A DNA stretch of 12,580 bases from Ponticaulis sp. GTDB lineage: Bacteria; Pseudomonadota; Alphaproteobacteria; Caulobacterales; Hyphomonadaceae. A program made the translations under genes and the position numbers. The stretch lies in NCBI GenBank assembly GCA_002699325.1, contig PABS01000046.1:70419-82998 (forward strand). Reading direction: 5' to 3'. Below are positions 3,623 through 12,580 of this stretch, piece after piece; position 1 is the stretch's first letter, and the number at the start of each line of letters is the position of its first letter. The notes beneath the pieces are model-generated. The model was not told the DNA's origin, searched no databases, and saw only the letters and a list, made by a program, of their open reading frames with translations.

Positions 3623-5569
3623 ATGTCTGACGAAACTCACGCGCTCTACCCTGTACCGCCAGAGACCGCACTTGCCGCCAAGACCGACAAGTCGCGCTAT
3701 GAAATGCTGTACAAGGAATCCATGGAAAATAGTGAAGCGTTCTGGCGGCGCGAGGCCATGCGTCTGGACTGGGCCAAACCTTTTACCAAGGTGAAGGATA
3801 CGAGTTTTGCGAAGGATGACGTTCATATTCGCTGGTTTGAAGACGGTGAGCTGAATGTCGCCTACAATTGTATTGACCGGCATTTGGACGCCAGAGGTGA
3901 TCAGACGGCTATCATCTGGGAAGGTGATGACCCCAATACTTCGATCTCCATCACCTATCATCAGCTACATGAGCGGGTGTGCCGCTTTGCAAATGTCCTG
4001 AAATCTCTCGGCGTAAAGAAGGGTGATCGGGTCACGATCTACATGCCGATGATCCTTGAAGCCGCCTACGCCATGCTGGCATGTGCGCGAATTGGGGCTG
4101 TGCATTCGATCGTGTTCGGTGGATTCTCACCAGAAGCGCTGGCGGGCCGGATCAATGACTGCGATTCCAGCGTGATTATCACGGCAGATGAAGGGCGCCG
4201 TGGCGGTAAGACCATTCCGCTCAAGGCCAATGTTGATGAAGCGCTGAAGCATGCGCTGGGAGTAGAAAAGGTTCTGGTCATTGAGAACACCGGCAATTCA
4301 GTCGCCATGAAAGGCGGACGGGATGTCTGGTGGCATGAGGCAGCGGCAGGCGTTGATGAGTTTTGCGACGCCGAACCGATGAATGCCGAAGATCCGCTTT
4401 TCATTCTCTACACATCTGGATCTACCGGGAAGCCGAAGGGCGTTCTGCATACAATGGGAGGCTATCTCGTCTGGGCGAGCATGACGCATGAGTATGTGTT
4501 CGATTACCGTGACGGTGAAGTCTATTGGTGCACGGCCGATGTCGGCTGGGTGACCGGGCACAGCTATATCGTCTACGGCCCGCTCGCGAACGGTGCGACA
4601 ACACTCATGTTTGAGGGCGTACCGAGCTATCCGGATGCGAGCCGGTTCTGGCAGGTGGTCGACAAGCACAATGTGTCGATCTTCTACACCGCACCAACAG
4701 CTATCCGTGCTCTGATGCGGGAAGGCGATGGGCCTGTAAAAGCGACAAACCGCAGCTCTTTACGTGTGCTTGGATCTGTTGGTGAGCCTATCAACCCCGA
4801 AGCCTGGCTCTGGTATTATAATGTAGTCGGTGAAGGGCGGTGTCCGATCGTCGACACATGGTGGCAGACCGAAACCGGCGGGATTATGATTTCGCCATTG
4901 CCCGGCGCGACTGATCTGAAACCTGGCTCGGCCACGCGACCATTCTTTGGCATCAAGCCCATCCTGGTAGATGCTGACGGCAACGAACTGGCGGGCGCCG
5001 TGGATGGCAATCTCTGCATCACCGATAGCTGGCCGGGACAGATGCGCACCGTATTTGGTGACCATGACCGCTTTGTTCAGACATATTTCTCGACCTATCC
5101 GGGCCGCTATTTCACAGGCGATGGCGCGCGAAGGGACGAAGACGGGTATTTCTGGATCACAGGCCGTGTTGATGACGTGATCAATGTCTCAGGTCACCGC
5201 ATGGGGACGGCCGAAGTCGAAAGCGCCCTGGTTGCTCATGATACAGTCTCTGAGGCGGCTGTTGTCGGGTATCCGCACGATATCAAAGGGCAAGGTATAT
5301 ACGCCTACGTGACGCTCAATGCAGGCGAAACGCCCTCTGATGAGCTGAAAGCAGAGCTGGTGAAGTGGGTGCGCGCCGAGATTGGGCCGATTGCCTCGCC
5401 TGACCTTATCCAGTTCGCACCGGGCCTGCCGAAAACCCGTTCAGGCAAGATCATGCGGCGGATTCTTCGCAAGATTGCTGAGAACGACTATGGGGCGCTG
5501 GGCGACACATCCACACTGGCAGATCCGGAAGTCGTTGATGATCTGATCGAGAACCGGCAGAACACATAA
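3623..5569 (+). CDS. acs: Acetyl-CoA synthetase (acetate--CoA ligase, AMP-forming)
   Basis: Acs converts acetate, ATP and CoA to acetyl-CoA, AMP and pyrophosphate in the cytoplasm. At 648 residues it has full family length, and the key positions appear to match the numbering of Salmonella Acs. The P-loop-like [11 protein letters not shown] spans 263-273. The acyl-pocket residues V310, T311, V386 and W414 are those that select acetate over larger acids; a propionyl-CoA synthetase would be expected to differ at W414. D500, R515 and R526 bind the nucleotide. K609 lies in [10 protein letters not shown], the lysine that Pat-type acetyltransferases acetylate and sirtuin deacylases restore, so post-translational control is possible. 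A GGGAAG (3608-3613) about nine bases before the ATG serves as ribosome binding site. The 20-base gap after the peptidase suggests co-transcription. A terminator follows directly. Confidence 0.97.
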
Positions 5570-5651: not shown

Positions 5652-7727
5652 TTAGTTGCTTCCGCCTGCTGCGCTGTTTGTCGCGCGATCAACGGCTTGG
5701 TTCTTTTCACCGTTTGATTGTTCACGCATTTGGCGGCGCATCATCTGCATCGCGCCAGCGGCCATCTCTTCACGGTTGATGGTTTCACTGCCGTCTTTAT
5801 CCAGCATTTTCATCATCATTGGCGCCATGGAAGCGAACTGACCTTTTTGAACTTCTGCAAGTTCAATCTCGCCATTCATGTCGTCATCGAGCGCACCGAA
5901 CAGCATGCCTTGTTCGAGTTCTTGCTGAACATCGTCCATCATGTTGTCAGTCGTCTCACCTTTCCACTGATAAGTCAGGCGAGTGTACTTCATCTCTTCA
6001 AACGACTGGTCACCCCATGTGACAGTTTTTGAAGGGTCAGGGTTCGCGAAGTTGCGCTTGGAGTTGTCGTACCAATAGTTCGTGACGATCCGATCACCTT
6101 TTTTGATGTCGACCGGCTCTTCGAAGCGGTAGTCAAACTGCCAGTTGAAGTCGTAACGCGGAACGTTCAGCAGCACTTCTTCTGTACCGTCTGCACGCTC
6201 AAGCGTGACGAGTGTGCGTGCCAGGCGGAAGTGACCGTGCGGATAGATGCCGTAAAGCGTCGCATCTGCTGGCCAGTCCATATAGGCAACTTCTTCGTGA
6301 TAGCCGTCACCTGGAGGCAGAGTGATTGTCGGATCAACGATCACATAGCTACGTGTGTAGTATTTCGGCTTTTCATCGTGGAAGTAGAAGCCGACCTTTG
6401 TATTGTCGACGATTTCCTTGCCAATAGGCGTGTAGTGCATCTGGAAGCCGATGGCACCGCCAGCCGGGAATGGGCTGCCTGAGTTGTCCATGTGAATCAT
6501 TGGCTCTTCACCAACAGCGTAAGTACCTGTTGAGAATTTCCAGTTGCTTTCCGTACCGCGGCCGTCAGCTGGAACTTCTTCCATATAGCCAGTCAGGGCG
6601 TGGTGAACTGCTGCACGGTCGCCAGGAATGATTGCAGTGGCTTTCAGCCATTTGTCTTCTGTCTGTGGGTTCACAGCATACGGATACTGATAGTCGACCA
6701 CACCTGTCGCAGGGATTGTGTACTCAGGTACATTGAGGATCAGGTCTGGTTCGCCGAGATCTTCCGGCCACTCAGGCGCTGTGTAAGCGAGCTCGACGAA
6801 TGGGTCTTCGCCTTCGCCACGTGGCGCGCCAGCATCAATCCAGTGGATGATGGTTTGTTTCTCTTCGTTCGTGAGTGCTCGCGAATGTTCCATGGCACGG
6901 TAAGTCGTATCTGGACCCCATGGTGGCATACGGCCGTCCATCATCACCTGTTTCATCATAGGCGCCCAGCCCTGAATAGACTGGTGATCTTTCATCGCCC
7001 AAGGCGCGATACCGCCTTCAGCGTGACATTCAGCACAGTTTTCGATGAGGATTGGAGCAACGTCCTCTGTGTAGGAGATGTTCTGAATCTCCGGAGCAGC
7101 GTCACGCTCTGGCAGTGAAATATATGTGCCAGACAGTTCTTCCGAAGCGGATACGTTCACAGGCTCTTCTGCGACGATCTGATCAAGCGCCGTTTTCAGG
7201 TAAGGCTCTGCACCGGAAACCGGGCCGTGATAGACAACCTTGAAGCCTTGTTTTGGGTCGATAACAAAAACTTCGCCAGCGCGGCTCACGCCCAAATCTT
7301 CACCAACGAGCTTTGCGTCGTCCATGAGGATCGGTGTGGTCCAGCCTTTTTCGTCAGCCTTGGCCGCAATCTCTGTACGTTCACCGCCTGCTGAGTTGAG
7401 GGCCATGAAGCGAATTTCTGTGTCTGCGTAATCAGCTTTCAGCGCTTCGATCTCTGTGAGCGCTTCGTCGGCAGCTTCGCAGTCCTGGCAGTAAGTTGTC
7501 ATGACGATCGCTGGAACGTCCTGCCAGTAGTAAAGCTCCTGATTCTTGCCAGTGGCGTCGATCAGGCGGAAATTTGGCACAAATTCTGCGACCTTCACTG
7601 GTGCAGTTGAAGCCGTTGATTCTGCTTCAGCAGTCTCTTGGGTTTGTGACTGTTGTCCGCAGCCTGCAACAGCGAGCGTGGTTGCAGCCACACCTGTCAC
7701 AAGCAAAGTTTTCCATTTCATCAGCAT
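5652..7727 (-). CDS. Multidomain lipoprotein: redoxin, cytochrome c, copper type II monooxygenase-like, EF-hands
   Basis: The 691-residue protein starts with a lipoprotein signal (MLMKWK, hydrophobic core, lipobox LAVAGC with C23). Position +2 is G, which predicts the outer membrane. After a polar linker comes a thioredoxin-like redoxin domain (about 45-185) with CQDC (80-83). A CAECH heme-c motif (231-235) follows, with possible axial Met M267 (GRMPPW). The region at about 325-590 reads like the PHM/DBM fold of copper type II monooxygenases: H375-H376, H431 (FQMHYTP), H497-G-H499 and M579 (QSFEEMK) match the five His and one Met copper ligands in order. Two EF-hand loops (614-625, 643-654) follow. 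It likely performs copper- and heme-dependent oxidation in the cell envelope; the substrate is unknown. A GGGAG (7735-7739) seven bases upstream supports this start, or an ATG two codons later. The frame stays open upstream to 8051, but that part overlaps the ABC gene and precedes the signal peptide. Domain reading is firm for redoxin, heme and EF-hands; good for PHM. Confidence 0.88.
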   Translation of the reverse strand: MLMKWKTLLVTGVAATTLAVAGCGQQSQTQETAEAESTASTAPVKVAEFVPNFRLIDATGKNQELYYWQDVPAIVMTTYCQDCEAADEALTEIEALKADYADTEIRFMALNSAGGERTEIAAKADEKGWTTPILMDDAKLVGEDLGVSRAGEVFVIDPKQGFKVVYHGPVSGAEPYLKTALDQIVAEEPVNVSASEELSGTYISLPERDAAPEIQNISYTEDVAPILIENCAECHAEGGIAPWAMKDHQSIQGWAPMMKQVMMDGRMPPWGPDTTYRAMEHSRALTNEEKQTIIHWIDAGAPRGEGEDPFVELAYTAPEWPEDLGEPDLILNVPEYTIPATGVVDYQYPYAVNPQTEDKWLKATAIIPGDRAAVHHALTGYMEEVPADGRGTESNWKFSTGTYAVGEEPMIHMDNSGSPFPAGGAIGFQMHYTPIGKEIVDNTKVGFYFHDEKPKYYTRSYVIVDPTITLPPGDGYHEEVAYMDWPADATLYGIYPHGHFRLARTLVTLERADGTEEVLLNVPRYDFNWQFDYRFEEPVDIKKGDRIVTNYWYDNSKRNFANPDPSKTVTWGDQSFEEMKYTRLTYQWKGETTDNMMDDVQQELEQGMLFGALDDDMNGEIELAEVQKGQFASMAPMMMKMLDKDGSETINREEMAAGAMQMMRRQMREQSNGEKNQAVDRATNSAAGGSN

Positions 7728-7961: not shown

Positions 7962-9815
7962 ATGTTTCACTTCTTTGAGAGCCGCGTCGAACCCTTTCCA
8001 GAAGAGGCTAATCCGACACCGCCCGATACACTGGTTGGATTTTGCTGGCACTATGTGAAGAACGCAGCAGGTTGGATCCTCCTTGTTACTCTTCTGACGA
8101 CGCTGACTTCCATTGGTCAGGTTTCGCTTTTTGCTCTTCTAGGCGTGATTGTGGACTGGCTCACTGGGACTGCTCCGGAGGCTTTATTCGCTGAGAAGGG
8201 CCATTTGCTGATCTGGATGGCCGTATTTGCGGGACTGCTTCTCCCGTTTACCGTGTTCTTGAAGAGTATGGTTCATCACCAGGTGATCATGTCGAACCTG
8301 CCAATGGCGATTCGCTGGCGGATGCACACCTATCTGCTCGGTCAGTCCATGGGCTTCTATGCTAATGAGTTCTCAGGACGGGTCGCAACCAAGGTGATGC
8401 AAACCGCGCTGGCCGTTCGACAGGTTGTAAATATCCTCCTCGATGTCTTCGTCTATGTAGTCGTGTATATCGGCTCCACCTTCCTTTTGCTCGGGTCTAG
8501 CGACTGGCTGTTTACCTTGCCTCTGGCTGCCTGGCTCGCTGTCTATGTGCTGATTGTTCGGCTCATTATTCCGCGTCTGACCAAAGTCTCACAGGCTCAG
8601 GCGGATGCACGGTCGGCTATGACGGGTCGTATTGTCGACAGCTATACCAATATCGCGACGGTGAAGCTGTTTTCGCATTCAGGGCGCGAGGAAGCTTATG
8701 CCCGACGGAGCATGAGCGACTTCCTGAAAACGGTTTATCCGATGATGCGACTGGCGACGATTTTCGACGCCTCGGTCTTCTGGCTGAACTGTCTGATGCT
8801 CGTCGGCACTGGCGCACTGGGCGTTTATCTGTGGAGCGAAGGCCTGATCACAGTCGGTGCCATTGCCGTTGCGCTCGGCCTCGCAATGCGAATCAACAAC
8901 ATGTCCCAGTGGATCATGTGGGAGATCTCTAATCTTTTTGAGAATATCGGGGTCGTTTATGACGGCATCGCGCTGATGAAACAGCCCATGTCCGTGAAAG
9001 ACAAAGACGACGCCAGGGAGCTTATGCTGCAGCGCGGCGAAATCCGCTTCGACAATGTCTCATTTCACTATGGAAAGGGGGCGGGCGTTATCAGTGACCT
9101 GTCACTTGACATCCGGCCTGGCGAACGGGTCGGCCTGGTCGGGCGGTCAGGTGCCGGCAAGTCCACCATCGCCAATCTTCTCCTGCGATTTTACGATGTG
9201 GAGGGCGGGACAATTTCGATTGATGGGCAATCCATTTCAGATGTGACGCAGGATTCGCTCCGTCGCCAGATTGCCATGGTCAGTCAGGATACCTCACTGC
9301 TGCACCGCTCTCTCCGGGACAACATTGCCTATGGTCGTCCGGGCGCGAATGATGAGGACGTGAAAGCTGCGGCGCTCAAGGCGAATGCCTGGGAGTTCAT
9401 TCAGGGGCTGGAAGATCAGCAGGGTCGGAAAGGCCTGGATGCTCAGGTCGGCGAACGCGGCGTCAAGCTTTCCGGCGGGCAGCGTCAGCGGATCGCAATT
9501 GCGCGGGTCTTCCTGAAAAATGCGCCTATTCTCATCCTTGATGAAGCGACGTCTGCGCTCGATTCAGAAGTCGAAGCCGCAATCCAGGACCATTTGTTTG
9601 ATTTGATGGAAGGCAAGACTGTGGTTGCCATTGCGCACCGTCTCTCAACCATCGCAGCGATGGACAGGTTGATCGTGCTTGATCACGGACGGATCATTGA
9701 ACAGGGCAGCCATGACCAGCTATTAGCCCATGGCGGTGTCTATGCAGACCTCTGGGCGCGCCAGACCGGCGGGGTCCTGGCAGATCAGGCGGCTCGGAGA
9801 GAGGAAGAAGTCTAA
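7962..9815 (+). CDS. ABC exporter half-transporter (membrane domain fused to ATPase)
   Basis: The 617-residue protein has an N-terminal exporter-type membrane domain of about six helices (about 35-335) and a C-terminal nucleotide-binding domain. The Walker A motif GRSGAGKST is at 394-402, the Q-loop Q442, the signature LSGGQ at 503-507, Walker B ILILD with catalytic E528 at 523-528, and the H-loop H559. All ATPase motifs are intact. It belongs to the MsbA/multidrug/ATM1-like type IV exporters and would work as a homodimer in the inner membrane, or as a heterodimer with a partner not seen here. The substrate (lipid, drug, peptide or other) cannot be read from the sequence. GGAGGCGG seven bases before the ATG fixes the start. 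It is transcribed away from the redox lipoprotein; a shared function is possible but unproven. Confidence 0.93.
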   Translation: MFHFFESRVEPFPEEANPTPPDTLVGFCWHYVKNAAGWILLVTLLTTLTSIGQVSLFALLGVIVDWLTGTAPEALFAEKGHLLIWMAVFAGLLLPFTVFLKSMVHHQVIMSNLPMAIRWRMHTYLLGQSMGFYANEFSGRVATKVMQTALAVRQVVNILLDVFVYVVVYIGSTFLLLGSSDWLFTLPLAAWLAVYVLIVRLIIPRLTKVSQAQADARSAMTGRIVDSYTNIATVKLFSHSGREEAYARRSMSDFLKTVYPMMRLATIFDASVFWLNCLMLVGTGALGVYLWSEGLITVGAIAVALGLAMRINNMSQWIMWEISNLFENIGVVYDGIALMKQPMSVKDKDDARELMLQRGEIRFDNVSFHYGKGAGVISDLSLDIRPGERVGLVGRSGAGKSTIANLLLRFYDVEGGTISIDGQSISDVTQDSLRRQIAMVSQDTSLLHRSLRDNIAYGRPGANDEDVKAAALKANAWEFIQGLEDQQGRKGLDAQVGERGVKLSGGQRQRIAIARVFLKNAPILILDEATSALDSEVEAAIQDHLFDLMEGKTVVAIAHRLSTIAAMDRLIVLDHGRIIEQGSHDQLLAHGGVYADLWARQTGGVLADQAARREEEV

Positions 9816-9823
9816 ACCTCCTT

Positions 9824-9870
9824 CCGCCTGAACGCAGTGGATCGCGACTATAGCCTCCGTTCTCAGGCGG
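9824..9870. repeat. Inverted repeat at the convergent ABC/hydrolase junction
   Basis: CCGCCTGA (9824-9831) and TCAGGCGG (9863-9870) are a perfect 8-bp inverted repeat separated by 31 bases. On the plus strand CTTTCACTTTTTT follows, so it could act as an inefficient terminator for the ABC gene. The right arm includes the stop codon of the hydrolase gene. The long loop makes a classical terminator doubtful. Confidence 0.35.
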
Positions 9871-10735
9871 CTTTCACTTTTTTCAGAAACTGAGAGATGG
9901 CCGAAACAGCTTCCGGTTCATCCAGCACAGGTGCGTGGCCGATACGCGGCACGGTCGCCATTTCAGCGTCGGGATGTGCATTCAGCATGCGCCGTGCCGT
10001 CTTTTCGGAAAGAAGCTCAGAAATCTCACCACGTATGAGGAGGAAGGGAGATGCAGACATGCCGCGATACAGCGTCCACATGCTCTCATCGTTTTCGTCC
10101 GTTGAGTCGGGTATCGCAAAGTTCTTGACGAGGTTGGGATCGTAATCGGCTTCGACTTGACCATCCTCTCGCGTCGCATGTGTGCGCCTGGCGAATTTCA
10201 GCCAGTCCTCGTCGGTATAGTCCGGGAACGCGCCCGCCTGTTTGGACTTGAGTGCTTGCGCTGCCGCCTCGAAATCAGCGACGGGCTTGTTCTTGCCGAG
10301 ATAGCTTGCAATCCGATTGAGGCCTTCGACTTCGATGACCGGGCCGATATCGTTCATGACGACGCCCTTGATGCGCTCTGGAATGAGGCTCATCAGGACC
10401 ATGGAGATGAGGCCGCCCATGGACGTACCAATGAGTGAGAACTTTTCGAGATGAAGATGCTCGATCAGCCCAATCACATCCTCTGCATAGATCGGCAGCG
10501 CATAGTGGGAGGGATCGGGATCATATTCTGATTTGCACCGACCGCGCGTGTCCCAGGCGATGAAGCGCGTGTCTGGATGATCGGGAAGAAGCGCTTCGAT
10601 CATTGGCTCGAAGTCTTTATGATTTCGCGTCAGACCGTGAAGACAGAGCACTGTGTGCGGCGCATTGGGATCGCCATAGCTGCGCGCATAAATGGACAGT
10701 CCGTCCTTCGTTTGAAATCGGATGTCGTCTGTCAT
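9863..10735 (-). CDS. Alpha/beta-hydrolase-fold enzyme
   Basis: The protein is a single-domain alpha/beta hydrolase of about 290 residues. Numbering from the upstream ATG at 10747, the oxyanion HG pair is H37-G38 (LCLHGLTRN), the nucleophile S109 is in GTSMGG, and the catalytic His is H271 (RIGHAPVLDEP). The acid is probably E241 or E244 in LLIRGEISELLS, where many relatives carry Asp. No signal peptide is present, so it acts in the cytoplasm, on an ester, lactone or similar bond that cannot be named. I prefer the start at 10735 (MTDD) because GGGA lies six bases before it; the ATG four codons upstream has no ribosome binding site. It is divergent from a TetR-family gene, and its promoter overlaps a perfect operator-like palindrome, so repression by that regulator is likely. 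Confidence 0.88.
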   Translation of the reverse strand: MTDDIRFQTKDGLSIYARSYGDPNAPHTVLCLHGLTRNHKDFEPMIEALLPDHPDTRFIAWDTRGRCKSEYDPDPSHYALPIYAEDVIGLIEHLHLEKFSLIGTSMGGLISMVLMSLIPERIKGVVMNDIGPVIEVEGLNRIASYLGKNKPVADFEAAAQALKSKQAGAFPDYTDEDWLKFARRTHATREDGQVEADYDPNLVKNFAIPDSTDENDESMWTLYRGMSASPFLLIRGEISELLSEKTARRMLNAHPDAEMATVPRIGHAPVLDEPEAVSAISQFLKKVKAA

Positions 10736-10768
10736 TTTGTTTCCCATTGTGTTTTGTGTTTTCAGAAA

Positions 10769-11611: not shown

Positions 11612-12580
11612 TTAGAATTCGAAATCCACACCCAGTGTGACGGTGCGTGGGTTTCCATAGAAGCCGGTAAGCGTGCCTTCGAGACCCAGTGTTGGTGTGA
11701 AGGTGCCATTGGCGTTGATGTTCACGAAGTTATAGCCAGCCACGACATAACGCTCATCTGTGAGGTTTTTGCCGTTCAGGCTCACACCCCATTTGCCGCT
11801 TTCAGCTTCCCAACGCATTGAGGCATCCCAAAGCGTGAAGGCGGGCTGGTCGAGAAATGGGTTCGGTGCTTCGAACTGGCTGGAGTCGCCGCGATACGAG
11901 ATCAGCGTGTTCACAAGAAGGTTGCCGTCATTGTTGGCGATCGTGAAAGGTGTGTCGTATGCGAGGCGCAGGCTTGCGGTCCAGTCTGGTGTGTTCTGAA
12001 TAACACGATCATCAGAGACGTCTGTACCCGATGCGTCGATGAACTCGTCATAACCCGCATCAAGATAGCCCACAGACCAGCTGGCATTGAAAAGGTCGCC
12101 AGAGCTGAACACATCCGTGCCCAAGATCGCATTACCTTCGAATTCCACGCCGGCGATGGTCGCGGCACCGGCATTGGTTGTAACGCCCGTGAAGGTGTCG
12201 TTCACGCCGTCACCGTCTGTATCTAGACCAACCGAGCCTGGGACCTGAACGTCCTTATAGTCGGCATAGAAGCCGGCGATGGAGTAGTTCAGCTTTCCAC
12301 CGAAATGGCTGGCTTTATAACCAACTTCAAAGCTGTCGACTTCTTCCGGATCGAACTGCATGAAATCGTAGATTTCCTGATCCGAAACTGTGCCATCTCC
12401 GTTGAAGTCCGGCGCAGCAGTCGTCTGACCACGCGGGTCAAAGCTGCCGCCTTTGAAGCCCTGAGCGTAAGTGAAGTAGACATTGCTCTCTGACGTCAGA
12501 TCATAAGCGAGCGAGACACGCGGGCTGAAATCATCGAAGTCAGCTTCGCCCTCAAAGTCAGAGGTTGTCGAAATGAGGAT
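11612..12580 (-). CDS. TonB-dependent outer-membrane receptor, C-terminal part
   Basis: 322 codons are present; the gene runs off the window, so plug and early barrel are missing. The fragment shows typical barrel strands: SPRVSLAYDLTSESNVYFTY, AQGFKGGSF, EEVDSFEVGYKA, AGVEFEGN, SLNGKNLTDERYVV. It ends TVTLGVDFEF, with the terminal Phe used as the barrel-assembly signal. Such receptors import siderophores, cobalamin, sugars or other ligands across the outer membrane with TonB energy; the ligand is not identifiable. The NLTDERY and GYK..F motifs suit the large receptor class common in Caulobacterales and sphingomonads. Two acidic loops are odd: a perfect EF-hand-like DFNGDGTVSDQE (fragment residues 58-69) and DTDGDGVND (120-128). 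Both lie in probable extracellular loops and may bind calcium. A UUCG terminator follows. Confidence 0.93.
   Translation of the reverse strand: MLISTTSDFEGEADFDDFSPRVSLAYDLTSESNVYFTYAQGFKGGSFDPRGQTTAAPDFNGDGTVSDQEIYDFMQFDPEEVDSFEVGYKASHFGGKLNYSIAGFYADYKDVQVPGSVGLDTDGDGVNDTFTGVTTNAGAATIAGVEFEGNAILGTDVFSSGDLFNASWSVGYLDAGYDEFIDASGTDVSDDRVIQNTPDWTASLRLAYDTPFTIANNDGNLLVNTLISYRGDSSQFEAPNPFLDQPAFTLWDASMRWEAESGKWGVSLNGKNLTDERYVVAGYNFVNINANGTFTPTLGLEGTLTGFYGNPRTVTLGVDFEF

Follow-up and report, generated by a model that had tools for sequence, protein, structure and literature searches.

A predicted PHM/DBH-like dicopper monooxygenase with a fused heme c domain in Ponticaulis sp.

Which reaction would be carried out by a bacterial protein that joins a redoxin domain, a heme c motif, a copper monooxygenase-like domain, and an EF-hand pair in one chain, and where would its electrons come from? 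The question is raised by a gene at 5652..7727 of a stretch of 12,580 nucleotides from Ponticaulis sp. (assembly GCA_002699325.1, contig PABS01000046.1, positions 70,419 to 82,998), here called the window. The first-pass annotation of the window had delimited this single open frame correctly and left its strand unstated; the gene lies on the minus strand, and the opposite (plus) strand of the same interval contains nine stops. The residues it had named (C23, CQDC, CAECH, H375, H376, H431, H497, H499, M579, and both EF loops) were all found at the claimed positions of the translation. The analysis makes it fairly probable that the product is a heme-wired, perhaps ascorbate-independent dicopper monooxygenase, exported and lipid-anchored, and probably not acting on peptidylglycine.

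Conservation was assessed in three sequence sets. A search among approximately 5.8 billion proteins yielded 1,674 homologues at E 1e-3, the best 120 of which were examined; all of these cover at least 88% of the query, and the remaining ones may share one domain only. Many of the best 120 are near-identical, and their invariant residues were equally kept in A1, a selection of 60 of them with about 80% mutual identity or less. The two other sets were recruited by a copper domain alone, namely the best 120 of 508 matches to the domain of the window protein and, as a bridging family, the best 120 of 1,570 matches to the domain of locus L084. Both copper-domain searches were restricted to shorter proteins (up to 485 and 472 amino acids, respectively), which places redoxin-bearing proteins (about 690 amino acids) outside their range, so that the absence of redoxin from these sets is partly by design.

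The copper domain was assigned on the basis of its computed fold, ligands, and homology. In the AlphaFold2 (AF2) model of the whole protein (mean predicted local distance difference test score (pLDDT) 86.4, predicted template modelling score (pTM) 0.83), the domain is predicted to adopt the two-subdomain beta fold of the copper type II monooxygenases. The putative ligands follow one another as HH...H and HxH...M, which is the order of peptidylglycine alpha-hydroxylating monooxygenase (PHM) and dopamine beta-hydroxylase (DBH), the animal enzymes for the production of peptide hormones and noradrenaline, respectively. Each of the six (H375, H376, H431, H497, H499, and M579) is invariant in the best 120 homologues, and the complete set is kept in 117 of the 120 proteins recruited by the window copper domain and in all 120 of the bridging family. 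A glutamine two residues N-terminal of H431 is likewise present in all A1 members and in 120/120 of each distant set. A further histidine, H477, was conserved in 120/120 redoxin-bearing homologues and in 67/120 relatives recruited by the copper domain alone. The PHM/DBH-type assignment of the first-pass annotation, which had been tied to a PHM-like fold and to conservation of the ligands, is borne out in both respects.

Profile A2, representing relatives of the window protein, matched human DBH (E 2.5e-6) with HH, HY, and HxH aligned. With an offset of 39 (eye count), the motifs correspond to DBH His262, His263, His333, His412, and His414, and Met487 lies outside the aligned stretch. The same five histidines are among the copper ligands of DBH named in the structure paper (PMC4846438). 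The bridging family (profile A3) aligned with A2 across both the heme and the copper domain (E 5.8e-81) and with rat PHM at E 4.8e-22, with the six ligands in register. The window protein itself reached 19.3 bits with PF03712, below the cut-off of 23, and PF01082 was not listed; the curated Pfam cut-off is a detection threshold and not a biological definition. PF03712 matched 33 of the 60 A1 members at E 0.01 and was precomputed for 6 of the 120 listed homologues (counted by eye), and both PF03712 and PF01082 matched all 20 bridging-family members tested (E 0.001). As judged from these alignments, the window protein belongs by descent to the PHM/DBH superfamily and is neither PHM nor DBH proper. 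It would be expected to bind two coppers, to use O2, and to hydroxylate its substrate.

Directly ahead of the copper domain, the first-pass annotation had placed a heme c domain, and motif conservation agrees: C231, C234, H235, and M267 are each present in 120/120 of the best homologues. Pfam Haem_bd and Cytochrome_CBB3 matched this region weakly, below the cut-off. CxxCH together with a distal methionine is the signature of a c-type cytochrome, and heme binding is predicted from it. In the copper-domain sets, the heme motifs were counted in sequences with at least 105 (window copper set) or 100 (bridging family) residues ahead of the copper domain. CxxCH and the methionine of an MPP motif were found in 64/64 and 108/108 sequences long enough to be judged, that is, in 172 of 172 judgeable relatives recruited by the copper domain alone. 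The other 68 (56 and 12) were set aside for their short sequence ahead of this domain. A signal-like hydrophobic start was present in 0/56 and 1/12 of these, compared with 52/64 and 93/108 of the judged relatives; the sole set-aside relative with such a start (P0261) carries CxxCH, and the MPP motif was seen in 37 of the 68. The set-aside sequences look like 5'-truncated pieces. The fusion thus appears to be wider than had been known from the window alone, and heme c seems to belong to the core of the family. The built-in electron route proposed in the first-pass annotation is strengthened indirectly, because heme is fused in every judgeable relative, which suggests that electrons in these enzymes would come via heme rather than ascorbate. 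Both cofactors are plausible, because the genome of the organism has matches to a cytochrome c assembly family and to a Sco protein.

Compared with rat PHM (1phm/1opm), which lacks heme, the window protein shows 14–17% identity and differs on the substrate side. PHM has an arginine two residues before the CuM HxH motif, an asparagine at Met+2, and a tyrosine at Met+4, which presumably hold the peptide carboxylate; the window protein has Tyr495, Tyr581, and Arg583 instead. Among the 120 relatives recruited by its copper domain, arginine at position 495 and asparagine at 581 were never found, tyrosine at 583 was found in four, and position 495 is occupied by Phe, Trp, Met, Leu, Val, or Ile in 100. 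An identity as peptidylglycine hydroxylase is therefore disfavoured by the residues at these positions, which point away from peptidylglycine and weakly towards a hydrophobic compound.

Ascorbate dependence and two widely separated coppers are textbook features of PHM and DBH. Ascorbate delivers one electron to each copper of PHM; for DBH, electron transfer has been suggested to take place at CuH, and O2 binding and hydroxylation occur at CuM (PMC6123673 and PMC4846438). For the window protein, metal and heme occupancy, electron flow, hydroxylation, substrate class, and the role of the redoxin domain are predicted features of the following scheme. A donor in the periplasm or the membrane would reduce the fused heme c domain, which would hand the electrons on to CuH (H375, H376, and H431), in place of soluble ascorbate; architecture and co-conservation make heme c the natural candidate donor to this site. 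CuM (H497, H499, and M579) would bind O2 and hydroxylate a C–H bond of an organic substrate, probably other than a glycine-extended peptide. The EF-hand pair would form a calcium-stabilised tail.

At the position of the c-type cytochrome domain with CxxCH and Met, human DBH (4zel) carries an N-terminal DOMON domain; in the Pfam scan of the window protein, no DOMON match was found ahead of the copper domain, where the redoxin and heme c models matched instead. The DBH DOMON domain is folded like the cytochrome domain of cellobiose dehydrogenase and lacks the typical heme ligands (PMC4846438). Like the window protein, proteins of approximately 400–450 amino acids with PF01082/PF03712 (Polyangium, Myxococcales, and L084 of the window's phylum) have heme c followed by the copper domain in a single chain. 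No redoxin or EF-hand match was obtained in 20 such members tested, and they carry 8–10 cysteines per chain in 98/120 cases, in contrast to five in the window protein (C23, C80, C83, C231, and C234), whose copper domain is devoid of cysteine.

The redoxin fold and the EF-hands could be confirmed, and the redoxin domain has diverged in its cysteines. Position 80 is Cys in 11 and Gly in 87 of the best 120 homologues, and position 83 is Cys in 102; both are Cys in 11 and neither in 18. The conserved CxxC of thioredoxin-type disulfide oxidoreductases is thus lacking in the family, although CQDC is present in the window protein. A second copy in the same genome (L002, G000:C47:8369-10150; 42% identical to the window protein) has Ser/Ser at these columns with HH, HY, HxH, M, and CxxCH intact. 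The first EF loop of this paralogue appears degenerate. The thioredoxin-like redoxins 2cvb, 2ywi, and 3u5r were solved as standalone proteins, whereas the window redoxin is fused and, unlike these, belongs to a family in which CxxC is kept in one clade only. In a midpoint-rooted tree of the heme–copper core, one clade (support 0.872) comprised all 61 redoxin-bearing leaves and three without redoxin; it was nested among 61 other heme–copper leaves, all without redoxin. The eight CxxC leaves formed a single clade (support 1.0), the placement of which among GxxC members had a support of 0.0. This midpoint-rooted tree suggests that the heme–copper fusion came first and that redoxin and EF-hands were added later; that redoxin was fused just once is deduced from this topology and depends on the midpoint root and on the length-limited sampling, in which redoxin-bearing proteins elsewhere were possibly missed.

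The redoxin domain would accordingly be a later, mostly non-thiol addition. His/Met-rich tails ahead of this domain were found in 48/120 homologues, mostly near-identical ones, and in 9/60 A1 members; the tail of the window protein itself contains no His/Met run. Locus L007 of Ponticaulis koreensis encodes a full-length paralogue with such a tail of its own (L007:8814-10883) and, directly upstream of it, a free-standing redoxin lipoprotein whose tail is His/Met-rich and of the MDH type (L007:7986-8711); the two tails look like a duplicated copper-binding module. Because of the tails in relatives, the redoxin lipoprotein of L007, and the paralogue without redoxin cysteines, copper loading or docking would be the most likely function of the domain, which is a guess held with low confidence.

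In the genome collection, at least 495 loci encode relatives, 80 of which were fetched. The first-pass annotation had spoken of an undescribed enzyme; in view of these loci, an undescribed family is the better term. Most of the best 120 homologues are unnamed in the database, and the names given are redoxin domain-containing or redoxin family protein, peroxiredoxin, mono- or diheme cytochrome c family protein, and hypothetical protein. Named hosts include Ponticaulis, Henriciella, Phenylobacterium, Oceanicoccus, and Pseudomonadales, among others. Within the taxonomic family of the organism, 27 of 105 genomes had a match at E 1e-60, and its own genome has two copies. In genus g162 (genomes G386–G400), 14 of the 15 listed genomes had 4–9 matches and one had two, some of them fragments; the expansion to as many as nine matches per genome suggests substrate divergence. 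A whole-length profile gave a match at E 0.001 in 157 of 299 phylum genomes. PF03712 was found in 1/398 phylum genomes, and this scarcity mainly reflects a model that misses the subfamily, because the own genome is not among the matched ones.

Several points weigh against the reading as a heme-wired monooxygenase. The MPP motif is lacking in 31 of the 68 set-aside relatives, including P0249 from a contig of 499 kb, and a true heme-less member may be among them. The distribution is patchy: among the matches listed in the 299-genome scan, full-length copies were found in two genomes (the own genome and G259), and the remaining ones covered the profile partially. The window gene is flanked by a convergent and a divergent gene and hence has no operon partner. 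No common partner gene was found across 81 stretches (the 80 fetched loci and the window); the neighbours vary and name no substrate. Finally, ascorbate may be the donor.

The alternative that survives best, although we regard it as unlikely, is that the protein holds or chaperones copper without being a catalyst. The PHM-like fold, the redoxin domain, and the His/Met-rich tails would then serve periplasmic copper handling, and the heme would act as a Cu(I)/Cu(II) redox switch. Thioredoxin-fold copper chaperones (Sco) exist, and the copper-binding-looking tails of relatives as well as the L007 redoxin lipoprotein fit this explanation. However, the six ligands are almost invariably kept in all three sets, the invariant glutamine before H431 resembles an active-site residue, the tail of the window protein is free of His/Met runs, and many heme–copper relatives have no redoxin domain at all. 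The expansion in g162 also suits substrate-diverging enzymes better.

A peroxygenase, in which the heme would provide one priming electron and the copper centre would then use H2O2, has a small chance of being correct. A mode driven by H2O2 has been proposed for some copper monooxygenases; the single conserved cysteine C83 in a peroxiredoxin-like fold could manage peroxide, and a single heme supplies one electron per step. Two complete copper sites are kept, however, one of which is the electron-transfer site in PHM and DBH, and the near homologues without either redoxin cysteine also speak against it. We judge a reversed flow to be similarly improbable, with the copper domain oxidising a substrate or Cu(I) and the heme c delivering electrons to the respiratory chain. 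Fused cytochrome domains often link a catalytic cofactor and a partner protein, as in the enzymes reviewed in PMC6472588, but the copper domain has the fold and the two sites of O2-activating monooxygenases, which require electrons, and no dehydrogenase domain was matched in the Pfam scan of the window protein. That the CxxC domain acts alongside the heme as a second redox partner, as the first-pass annotation had suggested, is very unlikely: CQDC is present in the window protein and CxxC is kept in 8/8 leaves of its clade, but as a conserved relay it was rejected, given the rarity of the pair, its confinement to that clade, the Ser/Ser paralogue, and the absence of redoxin from all heme–copper leaves outside the redoxin clade and three within it. 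The heme-wired dicopper monooxygenase is retained as the preferred reading. The features of the gene and its product are compiled in Table 1.

Table 1. Coordinates in the window of the gene and of its predicted domains, sites, and motifs
Feature	Coordinates	Strand	Residues	Basis or remark
Whole gene (lipoprotein signal, redoxin, heme c, PHM/DBH-like dicopper domain, EF-hand pair)	5652..7727	minus	691 aa + stop	
Signal peptide with lipobox VAG/C23	7659..7727	minus	1-23	Asp absent after Cys
Redoxin/thioredoxin-fold domain	7164..7595	minus	45-188	
CQDC	7479..7490	minus	80-83	sequence; Cys pair in 11/120 homologues
Heme c domain	6792..7115	minus	~205-312 (approximate boundaries)	weak Pfam matches below cut-off; CxxCH 120/120
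CAECH, heme c attachment site	7023..7037	minus	231-235	sequence, conservation
Met of RMPPW, likely distal heme ligand (predicted role)	6927..6929	minus	M267	conservation
PHM/DBH-like dicopper monooxygenase domain	5934..6755	minus	~325-598	
Predicted CuH ligands	6600..6605	minus	H375-H376	align with DBH His262/263, counted by eye
Predicted third CuH ligand	6435..6437	minus	H431	aligns with DBH His333, counted by eye
Conserved histidine	6297-6299	minus	H477	
Predicted CuM ligands (HGH)	6231..6239	minus	H497, H499	align with DBH His412/414, counted by eye
Predicted CuM methionine	5991..5993	minus	M579	in register with PHM DEM via bridging family
EF-hand loop 1	5853..5888	minus	614-625	sequence, conservation
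EF-hand loop 2	5766..5801	minus	643-654	Pfam scan, sequence, conservation

Both EF loops are canonical, with 12 residues and acidic positions 1 and 12, and D614, E625, D643, and E654 are each present in 120/120 of the best homologues. A lipobox-like motif was detected by a crude pattern in just 40 of these 120, and the lipid anchor is thus not general. Lipoprotein sorting is governed by the residue following the lipobox cysteine (+2 rule), and from this rule, the window protein would be sorted to the outer membrane.

In the context survey, for which genes in the fetched loci were called by codon-position score, the gene was recognised in 79 of the 81 stretches. Its neighbours form several local synteny groups with TetR regulators, DUF885, 2-hydroxyacid dehydrogenase, transglutaminase-like, and DUF6644 membrane proteins, and one group is presumably methylmalonyl-CoA mutase-like. 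No match to plasmid carriage was obtained in the search. In the window, the neighbouring genes are taken to encode an acetyl-CoA synthetase (3623-5569, plus), an ABC exporter (7962-9815, plus), an alpha/beta hydrolase (9863-10747, minus), and the C-terminal part of a TonB-dependent receptor (11612-12361, minus). Homologues of the first and third of these also adjoin in the Ponticaulis loci L003 and L004. In four Parvularculaceae/Aquisalinus loci, a DUF6644 membrane protein (PF20349, tested on L012) is encoded near the gene, immediately upstream in L009 and L011 and further off on the same stretch in L010 and L012; it is a possible candidate for a membrane electron donor. Downstream of the paralogue in L007, the gene at 11314-14787 encodes 29 copies of a WGNLDTF unit, and its homologue in L008 matched subtilase PF00082. 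Two recurrent neighbours that look exported (L018:9998-11047 and L022:6825-7856; clusters of nine genes in eight and seven loci, respectively) had no Pfam match at E 0.01.

The architecture was not found to be described in the literature searched, in which subscription papers are thinly covered, so that this is weak evidence of absence. PHM and DBH are listed under eukaryotes only in Table 3 of a 2020 review of metalloprotein families (PMC7435645). The proteins fall into an annotation blind spot: the window protein scores below the Pfam cut-off, and where its relatives are named at all, most names point to redoxins or read hypothetical protein, despite two copies in the genome and up to nine matches in related ones. 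Cellobiose dehydrogenase and LPMO are separate proteins, with a heme b on one side and an unrelated one-copper histidine-brace enzyme on the other. They nevertheless offer a likeness, because there a heme domain feeds electrons to a secreted copper monooxygenase, so that heme domains serving such enzymes are already known in another class (PMC6472588). We rate at somewhat below even the chance that the proteins described here form a large unrecognised bacterial PHM/DBH branch, in which a fused heme c predates the redoxin and EF-hand domains, the enzyme is wired to respiratory or periplasmic cytochromes, and electrons do not come from ascorbate. According to the DBH structure paper (PMC4846438), the working of the coupled steps is not fully understood. 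With a heme fused to the same six-ligand active site in every judged relative, a bacterial branch of this kind would offer a donor that can be read by its colour, and electron entry at CuH would be directly measurable. If the proposal is true, heme wiring may be the more ancient condition, and in animal DBH the heme-less, cytochrome-like DOMON domain could be either a parallel counterpart of the heme device or a replacement for it.
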